Assembly (NCBI GenBank): GCA_013140715.1
Contig: JABFSG010000033.1
Coordinates: 1-64,000 of the forward strand
From: Nitrospiraceae bacterium
GTDB lineage: Bacteria > Nitrospirota > Nitrospiria > Nitrospirales > Nitrospiraceae
DNA length: 64,000 nt
Direction: 5' to 3'
Shown here piece after piece: positions 2,878-61,370 of this stretch. Position 1 is the first letter of the stretch. The number at the start of each line of letters is the position of its first letter. The position numbers and the translations under genes are program-made. The notes under the pieces were generated by a model. That model had not been told where the DNA came from. It made no database searches and saw nothing but the letters and a program-made list of their open reading frames with translations.

Positions 2878-2955
2878 GACCTCTCCAATTTACCGATCAT
2901 CAGAATACCTCAGTACCGAACTGAAAGGCAATTCGCAGCCGGAGGCTGGTTCCTC

Positions 2956-3026
2956 TTGTTTGTTTTGTTTGTCTGGTTTGTTTCATTGAACAAGATCAAC
3001 CAGAGAAACCAAACAAACCAAATCAA
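2956..3026. repeat. F-type T/G-A/C hairpin repeat
   Basis: The left arm is built from TTTG words (TTGTTTGTTTTGTTTGTCTG) and the right arm from the complementary AAAC words (CCAAACAAACC). One of seven F elements here, all intergenic. It lies in the 2878-3239 gap between divergent genes, which otherwise holds only the sigma54-like promoter. Confidence 0.8.
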
Positions 3027-3151: not shown

Positions 3152-3166
3152 TGGCACGCACATTGC
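3152..3166 (+). promoter_or_regulatory. candidate sigma54 (RpoN) promoter
   Basis: TGGCACGCACATTGC matches the -24/-12 consensus TGGCACG-N4-TTGC exactly; only the following W position is G. GG (3153-3154) and GC (3165-3166) have the required spacing. Predicted start is near 3178, about 60 nt before the receiver-protein ATG at 3240. The signalling operon 3240-7881 would then need an enhancer-binding protein, which is not encoded nearby. Confidence 0.65.
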
Positions 3167-3239
3167 GCTTCGCGTTGGGTAAGAACCAAGGAGTCGATCA
3201 TAATGCCTCCACATCTACCTATCAACAAAGGAGGGTGCC

Positions 3240-3674
3240 ATGAGTGAGTTTAAGTCCGGATCCTTTATCGGAGGAGAAACCTGCGAGGGACGGGTGCTCG
3301 TGGTCGACGACGAGCCCGATATCCGCAAAGTCGTCAAGATGACTCTGCAGAAGGCCGGCTATGAGGTCCTTGAAGCGGAAAACGGCGAGAAGGCGATCGA
3401 GGTTATTAATTCAGGCGAAAACCGGCTGCTCCTCGATGTCGTGATCTGCGACATCCGTATGCCGAAAATCAATGGAGCCGAAGCCGTCGCGTACTTTAGA
3501 AACAACTACCCTCATGTGCCGCTAATCGTGCTGACCGGTTTCCCGGACACAGATATGGCGACATCCTTTCTCCGGCAGGGAGTGGTCGACTATCTCGTCA
3601 AGCCGGTCGAAGGGGAGAAACTGAGAGCAGCCGTCGCACGGGCCATGGAACAGCGGGAACTGGCACGGTTGTGA
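3240..3674 (+). CDS. single-domain response regulator
   Basis: A 144-residue protein made of one receiver domain (residues ~18-138) with no output domain. The acidic pair is D23/D24, the phosphoacceptor D71 (CDIRMPK), the switch threonine T99 (VLTGFP) and the conserved lysine K121 (LVKPV). It starts at an ATG preceded by AAAGGAGGG. It heads a co-directional cluster with two histidine kinases and a c-haem protein, so it is probably their phosphate acceptor, acting by protein-protein contact or as an intermediate relay. Confidence 0.9.
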   Translation: MSEFKSGSFIGGETCEGRVLVVDDEPDIRKVVKMTLQKAGYEVLEAENGEKAIEVINSGENRLLLDVVICDIRMPKINGAEAVAYFRNNYPHVPLIVLTGFPDTDMATSFLRQGVVDYLVKPVEGEKLRAAVARAMEQRELARL

Positions 3675-3773
3675 CGACGAACGGCCTTTCCCTCTGTTTC
3701 GAGGAGAGACCTTCTCCTCTTGATTCTTCTTCGGAACAGAGGGCCACAGTCCCTCAAAAGTGAGACCGCCTGA

Positions 3774-4826
3774 ATGGAACGGACCGGCCATACCAAGGTC
3801 GCCATTGTCGGAGCGGGGCACGGGGGTCACGCACTGCTGGATCTGCTGCATCGAGTCCCGTCGATTGAAATCGTCGGCATAGCGGACAGAAACCCTGCGG
3901 CACCGGGCCTGCAGCGCGCGCGGGAGCTCCGAATTCCCATCATCGCCGAGGTGCCCGATCTGATCGGCAACCATGGCGCGAGCCTGATCATGGACGTCAC
4001 GGACGATCCTGAGATGGAGACCTATCTCCATGCCCACAGACCCCCGACCACGGACATCCTCAACGGATCGTCATCCCGACTGGTCTGGGAACTGGTCCAA
4101 CACGAATTTAAACTCGAAGCAGAGCTGCTCCAGTCGGAAAAGCTTGCGGGAATCGGCTCCTTCGCCGCAGGAATTGCCCACGATATCAACAACCCCCTGC
4201 AGCTCATTTTGGGCCTGGCGGAAAACCTGGCGGAGGAACGAAACCTGACCGCCGTCCACGAACAGGCCAATGAGATTATCGAAGCGGTCAAACGGACAAG
4301 CGCCATCTGTCGTGACCTCACCCGCTACTCACGGCGCGCATCTCCCCATGAAGATGTGCTGGTGCCGGTGAACGGCAAACTGGACGAGGCCTTGAGGATC
4401 GCACGCTACGCGTCGAGCTTTCACGATATCGAGATGATTAAACAGTATCAGCCAAGCGCCGCCGTCACAGGGAATCCGGATGAGCTGCTCCATGTCTTCG
4501 TCAATCTCATCACCAATGCGGTCCATGCCATGGAACAGGCAGGCGGTAGACTGACGATCGAGACCTCCGTCCTCAACGGCCAGGTCGGCGTCCGAATCTC
4601 CGATACTGGTTGCGGCATCGCCCCGGACAAGATCCCCGAAATCTTCGAGCCGTTTTTCACAACGAAGTCCCCAGGGAAAGGAACGGGGCTGGGACTCTAT
4701 AACGTCAAAACGATCGTCGACAAAATGCACGGAGTCATCGCCGTCGACAGTCAGATCGAAAAGGGAACGACCTTCATCTTGACCTTCCCCAAAGGAGAAC
4801 CGACCGGACAAGAGGGTCTGTCATGA
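3774..4826 (+). CDS. histidine kinase with N-terminal Rossmann (NAD-binding-like) domain
   Basis: 350 residues with no membrane segment, so cytosolic. Residues 1-105 form a dehydrogenase-type Rossmann fold: KVAIVGAGHGGHA carries the glycine-rich loop (13-18) and GIADRN ends strand 2 with an acidic residue (D38), typical of NAD(H) rather than NADP(H) binding. Then come HisKA (H136 in GIAHDINNP; the usual E after H is D), an N box (VNLITNAVHAM) and G boxes (DTGCGIAP, GTGLGLYN) of the ATPase domain. The architecture suggests a kinase that reads a dinucleotide or a small ligand. The stop overlaps the next start by 4 nt (ATGA), so translation is coupled. Confidence 0.85.
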   Translation: MERTGHTKVAIVGAGHGGHALLDLLHRVPSIEIVGIADRNPAAPGLQRARELRIPIIAEVPDLIGNHGASLIMDVTDDPEMETYLHAHRPPTTDILNGSSSRLVWELVQHEFKLEAELLQSEKLAGIGSFAAGIAHDINNPLQLILGLAENLAEERNLTAVHEQANEIIEAVKRTSAICRDLTRYSRRASPHEDVLVPVNGKLDEALRIARYASSFHDIEMIKQYQPSAAVTGNPDELLHVFVNLITNAVHAMEQAGGRLTIETSVLNGQVGVRISDTGCGIAPDKIPEIFEPFFTTKSPGKGTGLGLYNVKTIVDKMHGVIAVDSQIEKGTTFILTFPKGEPTGQEGLS

Positions 4827-7321
4827 TCCCACCACCTCCTCCCTCTCGTTCCAATAGGACGTGGGGACTTCAACCGAAACTGATCCTGGCCATGTTGCTT
4901 GTCGGGATTGTGCCCCTCATCGTGGGACTCGGTCTCGCCTTTTGGCAAGGCTCCCGCGAAATCCAGGTCGTCAGCGGCGAAAGCTTCAAGGCCTTGGCCG
5001 AAGAGACGGCGCGAAAAGTCGATCTCTTGATGTCTGATGAAATAGGACGGACATCACGGATTGCAACAGACCCCTCGATTATCCTTGAACTTGAACAACG
5101 GCGCGATGCCCTGCTGGACATGTCTGACGATGCGCGTCGTCGATCGGTGGATACCCTTAAGAGGGGCTGGGAAGCCAAAGAGCCGGCATCAGTCCAGGCC
5201 ATTACGGGAAACAAGATGGCCGGCATCATCCAGGAATATCTCGCGGGGACCAAGAACGAAGCCGATCAATTGATACCGCAAGTAGTCCGGTCTGCCACGA
5301 AGATGCTGTACATCACAGACGTCGAGGGGAACCTGGTGGCCTCGTCGACCAACCTACCGTCCTTCGCGCATAAAGAAACCGCCTGGTGGAAAGGCGCTTC
5401 CCATCGCGGGGTCGGCCAGCTCTATATCGAAAACGTACACTTCGACGAGTCGGTCCAGAGCTATGTCATCAGTATCTCGCTTCCCATTATGGATCGCATC
5501 CGATATGGAGTAGTCGGGGTGATCCATCGTGTCATCGACGCCAAAGAGCTGATCTCACCTTCGATCTCGCCCATCCGATTCGGCAAGACCGGCCATGTAA
5601 TGCTGATCGATCATCGCGGCATCGTCATAAGCTGCCCCATCCTGCCGACCGGCGTCCGGCTCTCCGATGCACAGCTGGTTCCCCTCGTCACGCCTCTTCA
5701 ACCCGGTTGGGTCAGCGCCCCGAGCGATGGCCATGGCGGACAATCAACCTCGATTATCGGATTCGCCCCGATGCCGGAAACCAGTCGGGCTACCAATAGC
5801 GATCTCGGCAAGGGCTCCTGGCATACCTTTGTCTGGCAAGCGTCCGATGAACTCTTTGCGCCGATTCGTCACTTCCTCACCTGGATGGCGATCTTCAGTC
5901 TGGTCGCCGTCGGATTGATGACATCGCTCGGCTACCTTGCGGCGAACCGTATTGTCACGCCAGTGCGTCGATTACAGGCAGCGGCACAATTGGTCGGGCG
6001 CGGTGAGCTTCGGCAGCCCATCGACATTCAGACAGGCGATGAAATTCAGGATCTCGCTGACGAATTCAATCGGATGAATCGCCAGTTGGAAGCGGCCTTT
6101 GCCGGCCTGACCGATCAAGTGACCTTCAAAACACAACAGGTGGAGTCCCTGCTTCACTCGACAGACCAGATTCTGGATGCGGTTCCAACCCCGATCATCA
6201 TGGTCAATCAAGACGAACAGGTGCAGTACATCAATCGTGTCGGACGAGACTCCTTTCCGGTTACCGACCATTCGACCCAATCGATCCCGTTGTTCGAGAT
6301 ACTCCCAGACGACGCCGCTCTACGAGAGCACCTGCGGAGAGAATTCCGGCGCGCGCGAAATGGAGACCATGTCGAGACAGCATCCGGAGCGGAGGATGCC
6401 GCGGTCGTCAAGACCGCCCGCGACCCCTTGGCTCCTGAGACGGGAACGGGAGAACCAAGCAACCGGCAGGAAATTCAGATCGGTTCCCGACGGTATCACT
6501 ATCAGTGGTTCCACATGGTGGGGAGAAACCAGGGAGAGGATCGGGTCGGCCTTGTCTTCAGGGACACGACGGACGACAGCCTGCTCCAAGATCAGATTAT
6601 CCAGGCAGAAAAATCAGGCAGTCTTGGGACCCTCACAGCCGGAATCGGCCATGAACTGAACAATCCGCTCTTCGGCATTCTCGGACTGGGAGAAGCCATT
6701 GAAGAAGAAGCAGACCTGGACCGTGTCAGATCCTATGCCCGAGACATCGTCCAGCATGGCCGCCGAATGGCCGCGATTATCCGAGACTTCACCGGCGTCA
6801 CAGCCCGCGAGACATCGGATCAACGGCAACCGGTTCACCTCGAACGGGAACTCGATCAGGCCATCACGACAGTCGTGGCTGGCATCGACGCCACAGGACT
6901 CGCGATCCAGAAAACATACGCGGGAGACAGCTGCGTGTCGGCTCTGCCCGACCAGATCAGACAGGCGTTCACGAACTTAGTGGCGAATGCCATTCAGGCA
7001 ATGAAAGGCCGTGGCAGCTTGCATCTTTCGACATCTTTGACCGATACATCGGTCGTAACCAGGATTGGGGATTCCGGACCCGGTATTCCAAAACAATACC
7101 TGTCAAAAATTTTCGACCCCTTCTTTACTACCAAGGGGCAGGGCGAAGGATCCGGACTGGGCCTCACCGTGGCCCGCCGCATCATCAGAAAATTTGGAGG
7201 AGACATCAGAATCGAGAGTCAGGAAGGGAGCGGCACCTCATGTATCGTGACTCTCCCTGTCATTCCGCCATTTCCGCGCACAGAGGAGGCTTCATGCACC
7301 GAGTCGCACTCTACGCCATAG
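4823..7321 (+). CDS. membrane sensor histidine kinase (Cache-HAMP-PAS-HisKA-ATPase)
   Basis: 832 residues. A membrane segment near 17-38 (MLLVGIVPLIVGLGLAF) and another near 350-375 (FSLVAVGLMTSLGYLAA) bracket a ~300-residue periplasmic region that reads as a double Cache sensor (YITDVEGNLVASS, MLIDHRGIVIS). HAMP, a coiled linker and a PAS-like domain (VPTPIIMVNQDEQVQYINR) follow. HisKA has the phosphorylatable histidine in GHELNNPLFG near residue 609, then N, G1 and G2 boxes (FTNLVANAIQAM, DSGPGIP, GSGLGLTVA). It overlaps the preceding kinase by 4 nt and the following haem-protein gene by 28 nt. The periplasmic sensor could receive a signal from that haem protein (inference). Confidence 0.9.
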   Translation: MIPPPPPSRSNRTWGLQPKLILAMLLVGIVPLIVGLGLAFWQGSREIQVVSGESFKALAEETARKVDLLMSDEIGRTSRIATDPSIILELEQRRDALLDMSDDARRRSVDTLKRGWEAKEPASVQAITGNKMAGIIQEYLAGTKNEADQLIPQVVRSATKMLYITDVEGNLVASSTNLPSFAHKETAWWKGASHRGVGQLYIENVHFDESVQSYVISISLPIMDRIRYGVVGVIHRVIDAKELISPSISPIRFGKTGHVMLIDHRGIVISCPILPTGVRLSDAQLVPLVTPLQPGWVSAPSDGHGGQSTSIIGFAPMPETSRATNSDLGKGSWHTFVWQASDELFAPIRHFLTWMAIFSLVAVGLMTSLGYLAANRIVTPVRRLQAAAQLVGRGELRQPIDIQTGDEIQDLADEFNRMNRQLEAAFAGLTDQVTFKTQQVESLLHSTDQILDAVPTPIIMVNQDEQVQYINRVGRDSFPVTDHSTQSIPLFEILPDDAALREHLRREFRRARNGDHVETASGAEDAAVVKTARDPLAPETGTGEPSNRQEIQIGSRRYHYQWFHMVGRNQGEDRVGLVFRDTTDDSLLQDQIIQAEKSGSLGTLTAGIGHELNNPLFGILGLGEAIEEEADLDRVRSYARDIVQHGRRMAAIIRDFTGVTARETSDQRQPVHLERELDQAITTVVAGIDATGLAIQKTYAGDSCVSALPDQIRQAFTNLVANAIQAMKGRGSLHLSTSLTDTSVVTRIGDSGPGIPKQYLSKIFDPFFTTKGQGEGSGLGLTVARRIIRKFGGDIRIESQEGSGTSCIVTLPVIPPFPRTEEASCTESHSTP

Positions 7322-7881
7322 CCCTCACTCTCCTCATTGCTAGCCTGTGGTGGGAGCCCTGTACCCTTTCTGCAAAAGAGCGAACTGGACCGTCCGGTAT
7401 CCCCCCGGAAAAAGTGGCGGCCTATATCTATGATGTCATCAAGGCAGACCGCACATTGTATACCACGGAAATCGTGAATCGACTCCAGGCAAAAGGGGTC
7501 GCCAATGCCTCCGAACATTGGGAGCAAGAGAACGCCCTCATGTTGCCGGCACAGTTCCTTCAACATTCCGGCAAGCTGGCGGCAGAGAGCGGAAGCGAGA
7601 TCCGGTATCGGCTGATAGGCCTCTGGCCTATTTACCGTCGCAATGCTCCAGCGAGCGACCTGGAACGGAATGCCCTGGAGTCTCTCCGTAAGAATCCCGC
7701 CGTGCCTGTCACAGGAGTCGTGACCAGCGGGCGCAAACAATATTTTCAGGCGATCTATCCAGACCTCGCCGTCTCATCCGTCTGTATCGAGTGCCACAAC
7801 GGTCATTTGCTCAGCCCGAAACGGGACTTTAAGCTCAACGACGTGATGGGCGGAATCGCCATCACCATCCCGCTGGAATAA
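7294..7881 (+). CDS. periplasmic c-haem sensor-like protein (Tll0287/DUF3365 family)
   Basis: 195 residues. The start at 7294 is chosen because AGAGGAGG precedes it and it gives a clean signal peptide (MHRVALYAIALTLLIASLWW). The C-terminal half matches the Tll0287-like haem domain, with one CxxCH haem-attachment site (CIECH, residues 164-168) followed by GGIAITIPL. Such domains are known as periplasmic haem sensors, free or fused to kinases. The first 28 nt are shared with the 3' end of the kinase gene, so the two are translationally linked. Together with the Cache kinase it probably forms a split redox or gas sensor; the ligand cannot be read from sequence. Confidence 0.85.
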   Translation: MHRVALYAIALTLLIASLWWEPCTLSAKERTGPSGIPPEKVAAYIYDVIKADRTLYTTEIVNRLQAKGVANASEHWEQENALMLPAQFLQHSGKLAAESGSEIRYRLIGLWPIYRRNAPASDLERNALESLRKNPAVPVTGVVTSGRKQYFQAIYPDLAVSSVCIECHNGHLLSPKRDFKLNDVMGGIAITIPLE

Positions 7882-7913: not shown

Positions 7914-7989
7914 TGGTTGATCTGGTTTGTTTAGTTCATCTGGTAAGTCTGGTTCAACCAAACAAACGAGACAAACGAAACAAAGCAAA
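7914..7989. repeat. F-type hairpin repeat in a convergent gap
   Basis: Left arm words GGTTGATCTGGTTTGTTTAG pair with right arm words CCAAACAAACGAGAC. The tail AACGATCTTCATCCTGCTAAG (7990-8010 region) is shared with other F copies. It sits between the ends of two convergent genes and may work as a bidirectional terminator. Confidence 0.75.
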
Positions 7990-11948: not shown

Positions 11949-11990
11949 AATTCTGGGATATCACTACAGCATAACCAGACAAGCGGAACT

Positions 11991-12079
11991 GTTTATTTGG
12001 TTATTTGGTTTGTTTCGTTTATTTGGTTGAACCAGACTAACCAGATAAACCAAAAAAACCAAACAAACGAAAGCAACCA
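11991..12079. repeat. F-type hairpin repeat
   Basis: Long imperfect inverted repeat: GGTTTGTTTCGTTTATTTGG on the left, CCAGATAAACC ... CCAAACAAACG on the right, around a short GAACCAGAC loop. It lies between the end of the symporter gene and the 5' side of mrcB. Confidence 0.8.
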
Positions 12080-15113: not shown

Positions 15114-15195
15114 CTGGTTTGTTTCGTTTATTTAGTTGATTTAGTTCATCTGGTAGTTTCGTCAACCAAACAAGACAAACCAAATAAACCAAACA
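15114..15195. repeat. F-type hairpin repeat after a stop codon
   Basis: Left words GGTTTGTTTCGTTTATTTAG and right words CAAACAAGACAAACC pair. It starts 3 nt after the stop of the upstream gene. The tail AACGGCCTTCA ... CAGCATCCTGCTA (to 15235) is shared with the F copy at 61285. Confidence 0.8.
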
Positions 15196-35338: not shown

Positions 35339-35344
35339 GAGAAT

Positions 35345-35421
35345 CTGGTTTATTTGGTCTATTTGGTTTGTTTCGTTGACCTGATTCAACCAAATAAACG
35401 AGACAAACCAAACAAACGAAA
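35345..35421. repeat. F-type hairpin repeat
   Basis: Left GGTTTATTTGGTCTATTTGG ... GTTTCGTTGACCTG, right CAACCAAATAAACGAGACAA ... CAAACGAAATAACGG. It starts 7 nt after the uup stop and precedes the lytic transglycosylase gene. Confidence 0.8.
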
Positions 35422-58566: not shown

Positions 58567-58591
58567 GACCTCTCCAGAACGTTGGATAGTT

Positions 58592-58659
58592 GCTTTGGTT
58601 TGTTTCGTGTATTTGGTTGAACCGGACTAACCAAATCAACCAAACAAACCAAATCAACG
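58592..58659. repeat. F-type hairpin repeat between two leftward genes
   Basis: Left GGTTTGTTTCGTGTATTTGG, right CCAAATCAACCAAACAAACC. It lies in the 103-bp space between the cyclodeaminase and dihydrolase genes. Confidence 0.8.
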
Positions 58660-61284: not shown

Positions 61285-61370
61285 ATTGGTTGATTTGGTT
61301 CATCTGGTTTGTTTTGTGTTTCTGGTTGGTCTTGTTCAACCAAACAAACGAGACAAACCGAACAAACCAC
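61285..61370. repeat. F-type hairpin repeat in a divergent gap
   Basis: Left GGTTGATTTGGTTCATCTGG, right GTTCAACCAAACAAACGAGA. Tail ATAACGGCCT ... CATCCTCCTAG continues to ~61415, as in other copies. It is the only F element between the starts of two divergent genes, so termination cannot be its only role. Confidence 0.8.

Follow-up and report, generated by a model that had tools for sequence, protein, structure and literature searches.

The window analysed here, a stretch of 64,000 nucleotides from a Nitrospiraceae bacterium (assembly GCA_013140715.1, contig JABFSG010000033.1, positions 1 to 64,000 of the forward strand), carries near its beginning a cassette of signalling genes, all on the + strand and preceded by a predicted sigma-54 (-24/-12) promoter. 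The first gene (3240-3674; Pfam Response_reg, 101.8 bits) encodes a single-domain response regulator, hereafter the receiver. The second (3774-4826) encodes a cytosolic histidine kinase, RossHK, in which Pfam and an AlphaFold2 model place a Rossmann head, a helix (residues 98-124), a HisKA domain (H136) and a HATPase_c domain. It is followed by the gene for a membrane histidine kinase, CacheHK (4823-7321), with dCache_1, HAMP, PAS, HisKA and HATPase_c domains according to Pfam, and by that for a secreted c-haem protein of the Tll0287/sCache_heme family (7294-7881), whose CIECH motif is encoded at 7783-7797. The RossHK and CacheHK frames overlap by 4 bp (4823/4826) and those of CacheHK and the c-haem protein by 28 bp (7294/7321). 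An earlier note, made from the letters of this DNA, had proposed a sigma-54 promoter ahead of a receiver, a cytosolic kinase with a dehydrogenase-like domain, a membrane Cache kinase and a periplasmic c-haem protein, with overlapping frames in the last three genes; each of these elements was recovered, and their grouping is upheld by conservation of the cassette in relatives.

RossHK is a HisKA-type sensor kinase (HATPase_c 97.9 bits, HisKA 41.8 bits, H136 present), and its kinase core, which scores 166 bits against the AtoS model and matches the ZraS structure, resembles those of NtrB/AtoS/ZraS-type kinases. Unlike these proteins, however, it has a Rossmann head instead of a PAS or periplasmic sensor. 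This head spans residues 7-111 (3792-4106, + strand) and displays the beta-alpha-beta arrangement, the GxGxxG loop (GAGHGG, residues 13-18) and the acid after strand 2 (D38) of dehydrogenase-type domains binding nicotinamide adenine dinucleotide or its phosphate (NAD(P)), together with T76, G98 and W105. The window copy falls below every Pfam cut-off, and its relatives exceed those for GFO_IDH_MocA, DapB_N or NAD_binding_3; the Rossmann assignment of the window copy is established by profile matches, by structural comparison and by its relatives. Searching the PDB with the head, as a single sequence and as a profile, returned acetaldehyde dehydrogenase, DapB-type reductase and Rex, and NCBIfam acetaldehyde dehydrogenase models gave weak matches in all 17 of the members scanned, the window copy lying far below the cut-off. 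In the AlphaFold2 model the predicted local distance difference test (pLDDT) values are mostly 74-90 over residues 11-90 and low elsewhere, because the alignment is shallow. The nearest solved fold by VIA-align is the NAD domain of acetaldehyde dehydrogenase (4lrs; Z 11.6, root-mean-square deviation 2.0 over 99 residues), followed by the NAD domains of Gfo/Idh/MocA enzymes, and the last helix of the head (98-124) continues in the model towards the HisKA helices.

Acylating acetaldehyde dehydrogenase of the DmpF/BphJ type thus provides the closest NAD domain by both profile and fold, but RossHK lacks its catalytic/dimerisation domain: the head ends near residue 107 and a signalling helix follows. 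We therefore rejected RossHK as an acetaldehyde dehydrogenase or Gfo/Idh/MocA enzyme, since the kinase comes directly after the NAD domain and no C-terminal catalytic domain is present. Rex shares the use of an NAD-type Rossmann domain as sensor and gives a weak but repeated profile match to the head, yet membership of RossHK in that family was likewise rejected, as the Pfam scan finds no winged-helix DNA-binding domain and the Rossmann domain already begins at residue 7; the outputs joined to the head are instead kinases, cyclases, methyl-accepting chemotaxis proteins (MCPs) and receivers. Judged by sequence and model, the head is a dehydrogenase-type NAD fold without the catalytic domain.

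Conservation of the head bears directly on its probable ligand. Among 106 distinct Rossmann domains, G13, D/E38 and A49 are invariant, with G15 present in 105 and T76 in 103. In Rossmann enzymes, an acidic residue closing strand 2 (position 38) usually indicates a preference for NAD over NADP, and the head is likely to sense NAD(H). Several points weigh against this assignment. The window copy carries D77 in place of the G of nearly all members, a substitution common to three close relatives, and N97 at a site mostly occupied by S or G; one Desulfobacterota subgroup has Cys instead of the loop's third glycine; and the Rossmann fold may bind other nucleotides or none. The head could accordingly be a sensor for NADP(H), a coenzyme A (CoA) derivative, ADP-ribose, a sugar nucleotide or a protein partner, in keeping with weak matches also to CoA_binding and sugar-nucleotide families, with the deviation of the window copy at two family sites, and with the conserved G98 and W105, which lie outside the dinucleotide loop and are unexplained by NAD binding. 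The invariant strand-2 acid and the NAD-dependent nature of the enzymes providing the best folds speak for NAD(H) instead, and we regard another ligand as somewhat unlikely. That the head is vestigial, or a purely structural dimerisation domain with no sensing role, would fit the sub-threshold Pfam scores of the window copy, but a decayed site would drift, whereas the acid and the glycine loop persist in three phyla and with many outputs, which makes this explanation very improbable.

A sensory role for the head agrees with its distribution. We detected it in 175 of 296 Nitrospirota genomes, in 68 of 247 genomes of the phylum of Desulfopila (Desulfobacterota) and in 99 of 398 of the phylum of Marinobacterium (Pseudomonadota), each count referring to a sample of genomes at a set threshold. 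It is joined to HisKA and HisKA_3 kinases, GAF/PAS hybrid kinases, GGDEF, GGDEF-EAL, MCPsignal and Sigma54_activat domains, as expected of a sensor. The head thus proved widespread rather than operon-specific; the earlier note was partly supported, namely on promoter, domain and gene grouping, and had overlooked this wide spread as a sensor module. No dedicated Pfam or NCBIfam family for the head turned up, and open-access literature on Rossmann-headed kinases, cyclases or inserted receivers yielded no description of the domain, an absence that is not proof. The Rossmann head is hence a widespread and apparently undescribed sensor module. A dehydrogenase-like protein modulating a histidine kinase has a precedent in KidO of Caulobacter, an NAD-binding oxidoreductase-like regulator of DivJ, which we cite only as a lead; KidO is a separate protein, not a kinase domain. 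One putative relative from Desulfopila (L049) was rejected, the common part being the kinase core only. Variants observed during the survey include tandem pairs of heads in kinases (L127 2553-4904, L133 2133-4436), a sigma-54 activator with a Rossmann head and a Fis-type helix-turn-helix (L096 4228-5538, + strand), which amounts to a one-component version, and soluble proteins of about 215 residues from genomes of the Pseudomonadota phylum, made of a head and a short MCPsignal-like domain (L214, L215, L216). Within the host's family, the domain occurs in 142 of 147 genomes, some of which have just a HisKA_3-type paralogue. The host genome itself encodes a second, HisKA_3-like Rossmann-headed kinase (L002 1444-2553, + strand), with nrdR and glyA genes before it and a LuxR-type regulator after it.

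An association between head and receiver comes from proteins in which the two are nested. In 17 full-length genes from 16 genomes of the host's order (some consisting of single contigs), belonging to seven genera and two families, the Rossmann domain is inserted within a receiver (L068 4938-5810, - strand; L080-L086, L089, L090); in an eighth genus the nested copy is cut by masked bases (L065). The receiver chain is broken after strand beta-4 and resumed before the conserved Lys of beta-5, and the alignment places the C-terminal helix of the Rossmann domain at the position of alpha-4 in the stand-alone receiver. In nine aligned nested receivers, E24 (the first acidic residue), D72, T98 and K241 are invariant, and so, in the Rossmann portion, are the acid and the glycine loop. 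Over its main segment the receiver portion shares 42-51% identity with the cassette receiver; the nested protein therefore unites two cassette neighbours, and these natural fusions provide independent (Rosetta-stone) evidence that receiver and Rossmann domain belong together. Nested genes with neighbours scanned have no adjoining partner kinase. Reconstruction on a tree gives three changes for the nested form (approximately unbiased test, p 0.26), compatible with either one or several origins.

The cassette receiver has the acidic pair D23/D24, the phospho-acceptor D71, T99 and K121, as well as a conserved 16-residue N-terminal tail. No other signalling part of the cassette is as well conserved: the receiver's identity to other sampled genera of the family is 83-88% in most and 77% in two, with ranges across family genera of 77-88% for the receiver, 54-69% for RossHK and 56-64% for CacheHK. 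The closest named relative is Nitrospira sp. CG24E, where RossHK is 95% identical. The genus, the family and a second family of the same order (f2) all retain the gene order receiver-RossHK-CacheHK, in most cases together with the haem gene, so that the cassette is conserved in genus and family and partly beyond. In some f2 genomes a hybrid receiver-PAS-GAF-PAS kinase gene stands ahead of the receiver, which suggests that the receiver may be a hub for several kinases.

Kinase similarity and gene order bear on whether both cassette kinases act on this receiver. Among the kinases of its genome, RossHK has its closest core match in CacheHK (37% identity), at 145 bits against 144 for the next kinase; because this margin is slim, gene order is the main support for a shared receiver. 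The similarity barely surpasses what three further kinases of the genome show, and CacheHK or the haem gene is missing beside some relatives of the receiver-RossHK pair, two points that count against convergence and would agree with the two kinases serving different receivers, their operon order reflecting co-regulation only. That order is nevertheless kept through the family and in f2, and the receiver-Rossmann fusion ties at least RossHK to the receiver, so we consider separate receivers unlikely. Linkage and natural fusion both support the predicted receiver-Rossmann link; for a link of CacheHK to the same receiver the support is linkage, kinase similarity adding little.

CacheHK carries its own dCache domain and a weak PAS domain, and its sensor region has no PDB relative by sequence; the haem protein is encoded separately. 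The start of the latter is likely the ATG at 7294 rather than at 7240, because a Shine-Dalgarno-like sequence, AGAGGAGG, precedes 7294. The protein scores 59.1 bits against the Pfam Tll0287-like model (cut-off 24.1), and its 17 orthologues have an invariant CxxCH and no conserved Cys outside it. Neither sequence nor fold gave a usable match in the PDB, and the model, a weak prediction (pLDDT 58), has no significant fold match. A 2026 preprint (PMC12889525) renames the Tll0287/DUF3365 family sCache_heme and describes a stand-alone member with Cys/His ligation that looks redox-like, and a signalling-associated member without an axial Cys that binds nitric oxide (NO) tightly. The window protein shares with this family the CxxCH and a score above the cut-off, but it is stand-alone and yet, as its 17 orthologues indicate, lacks the axial Cys of the redox-type stand-alone protein; moreover, it is encoded beside a dCache kinase, not fused to it. 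Because no Cys is conserved outside CxxCH, it would resemble the NO-binding type by ligation, and it may sense NO or redox state. An electron carrier sharing the transcript and unrelated to signalling would be consistent with the redox behaviour of the stand-alone sCache_heme protein examined to date (PMC12889525), but the haem gene overlaps the kinase gene and stays with it, and the missing axial Cys sets the protein apart from that redox-type member; we find this explanation doubtful.

The predicted promoter, TGGCACGCACATTGC (TGGCACG-CACA-TTGC; 3152-3166, + strand, 0 mismatches, predicted start near 3178), has the TGGCAC-N5-TTGC elements at fixed spacing and is the sole perfect match to the sigma-54 pattern within the window. 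The host genome encodes one RpoN (516-amino-acid frame) and has 27 matches to sigma-54 activator domains. The perfect match was rejected as stand-alone evidence, since two such matches occur across the 3.58 Mb genome against about 1.7 expected by chance, and the case for the promoter rests instead on conservation and position. Of 24 non-redundant upstream regions from the same genus, 23 have a sigma-54 site at a distance of 84-96 bp from the receiver start, and perfect or near-perfect sites are also present in two further family genera (L066, L028), with weaker sites elsewhere; upstream regions of f2 show no convincing site. Predicted sigma-54 control of the cassette is supported by this pattern. 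The other perfect match in the genome (G000 C100:100542-100556; L140 from 1501) lies about 50 bp ahead of a gene for a secreted tetratricopeptide repeat-type protein.

Upstream of the cassette lies a divergent glutaredoxin gene (2100-2441, - strand; Pfam Glutaredoxin, 59.5 bits), a conserved neighbour within the family, and downstream a convergent gene for an AI-2E-type permease. The receiver-RossHK intergenic region contains an inverted repeat (3690-3743, + strand), a weak candidate for an attenuator or processing site; it has no Rfam match, and with a fold z of -1.83 and just one compensatory pair among 15 species the case for a conserved RNA element is weak. Dispersed hairpin repeats, in which T/G-rich pentamer-like units in every case precede the complementary A/C-rich arm on the + strand, occur in the window at 2944-3014, 11988-12056, 15114-15183, 35344-35410, 58580-58646 and 61286-61363, and by eye near 7921-7985; in one relative (L006) such a repeat lies between the receiver and RossHK genes. 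Defence-system models gave no match.

Taken together, these results are compatible with a sigma-54-driven two-kinase cassette in which one receiver would collect both an NAD(H)-type input and a periplasmic input from haem or a ligand, a proposal that we hold to be as apt to be right as wrong. RossHK would be soluble, and its head would correspond to a dehydrogenase that has lost its catalytic half and retained the NAD-binding one; an uninterrupted helix would connect this head with the dimerisation/phospho-acceptor helices. Binding of a ligand, most likely NAD+ or NADH, would shift the connecting helix and so adjust the kinase or phosphatase activity. CacheHK would respond to a ligand in the periplasm, probably in concert with the secreted sCache_heme protein as a reader of haem redox state or NO, and both kinases would act on the first-encoded receiver, setting its phosphorylation; having no output domain, the receiver would relay to another protein.

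Few signalling proteins are, to our knowledge, known to read NAD(H) directly, Rex being the standard example. We tentatively propose, as a broader reading that we consider less likely than not, that an undescribed cytosolic sensor family derived from the NAD half of dehydrogenases may report NAD(H) to two-component, cyclic di-GMP, chemotaxis and sigma-54 outputs in at least three phyla and, where it is spliced into a receiver in place of alpha-4 in some Nitrospirales, may yield a regulator gated by both phosphorylation and dinucleotide. The receiver insertion offers a direct test of sensor wiring into the alpha-4 output face. If the proposal is true, an NAD(H) input would reach kinases, diguanylate cyclases, chemoreceptor-like proteins and receivers, and through this modular head redox state would shape the behaviour of Nitrospirota, including nitrite oxidisers, of sulfate reducers and of other bacteria.

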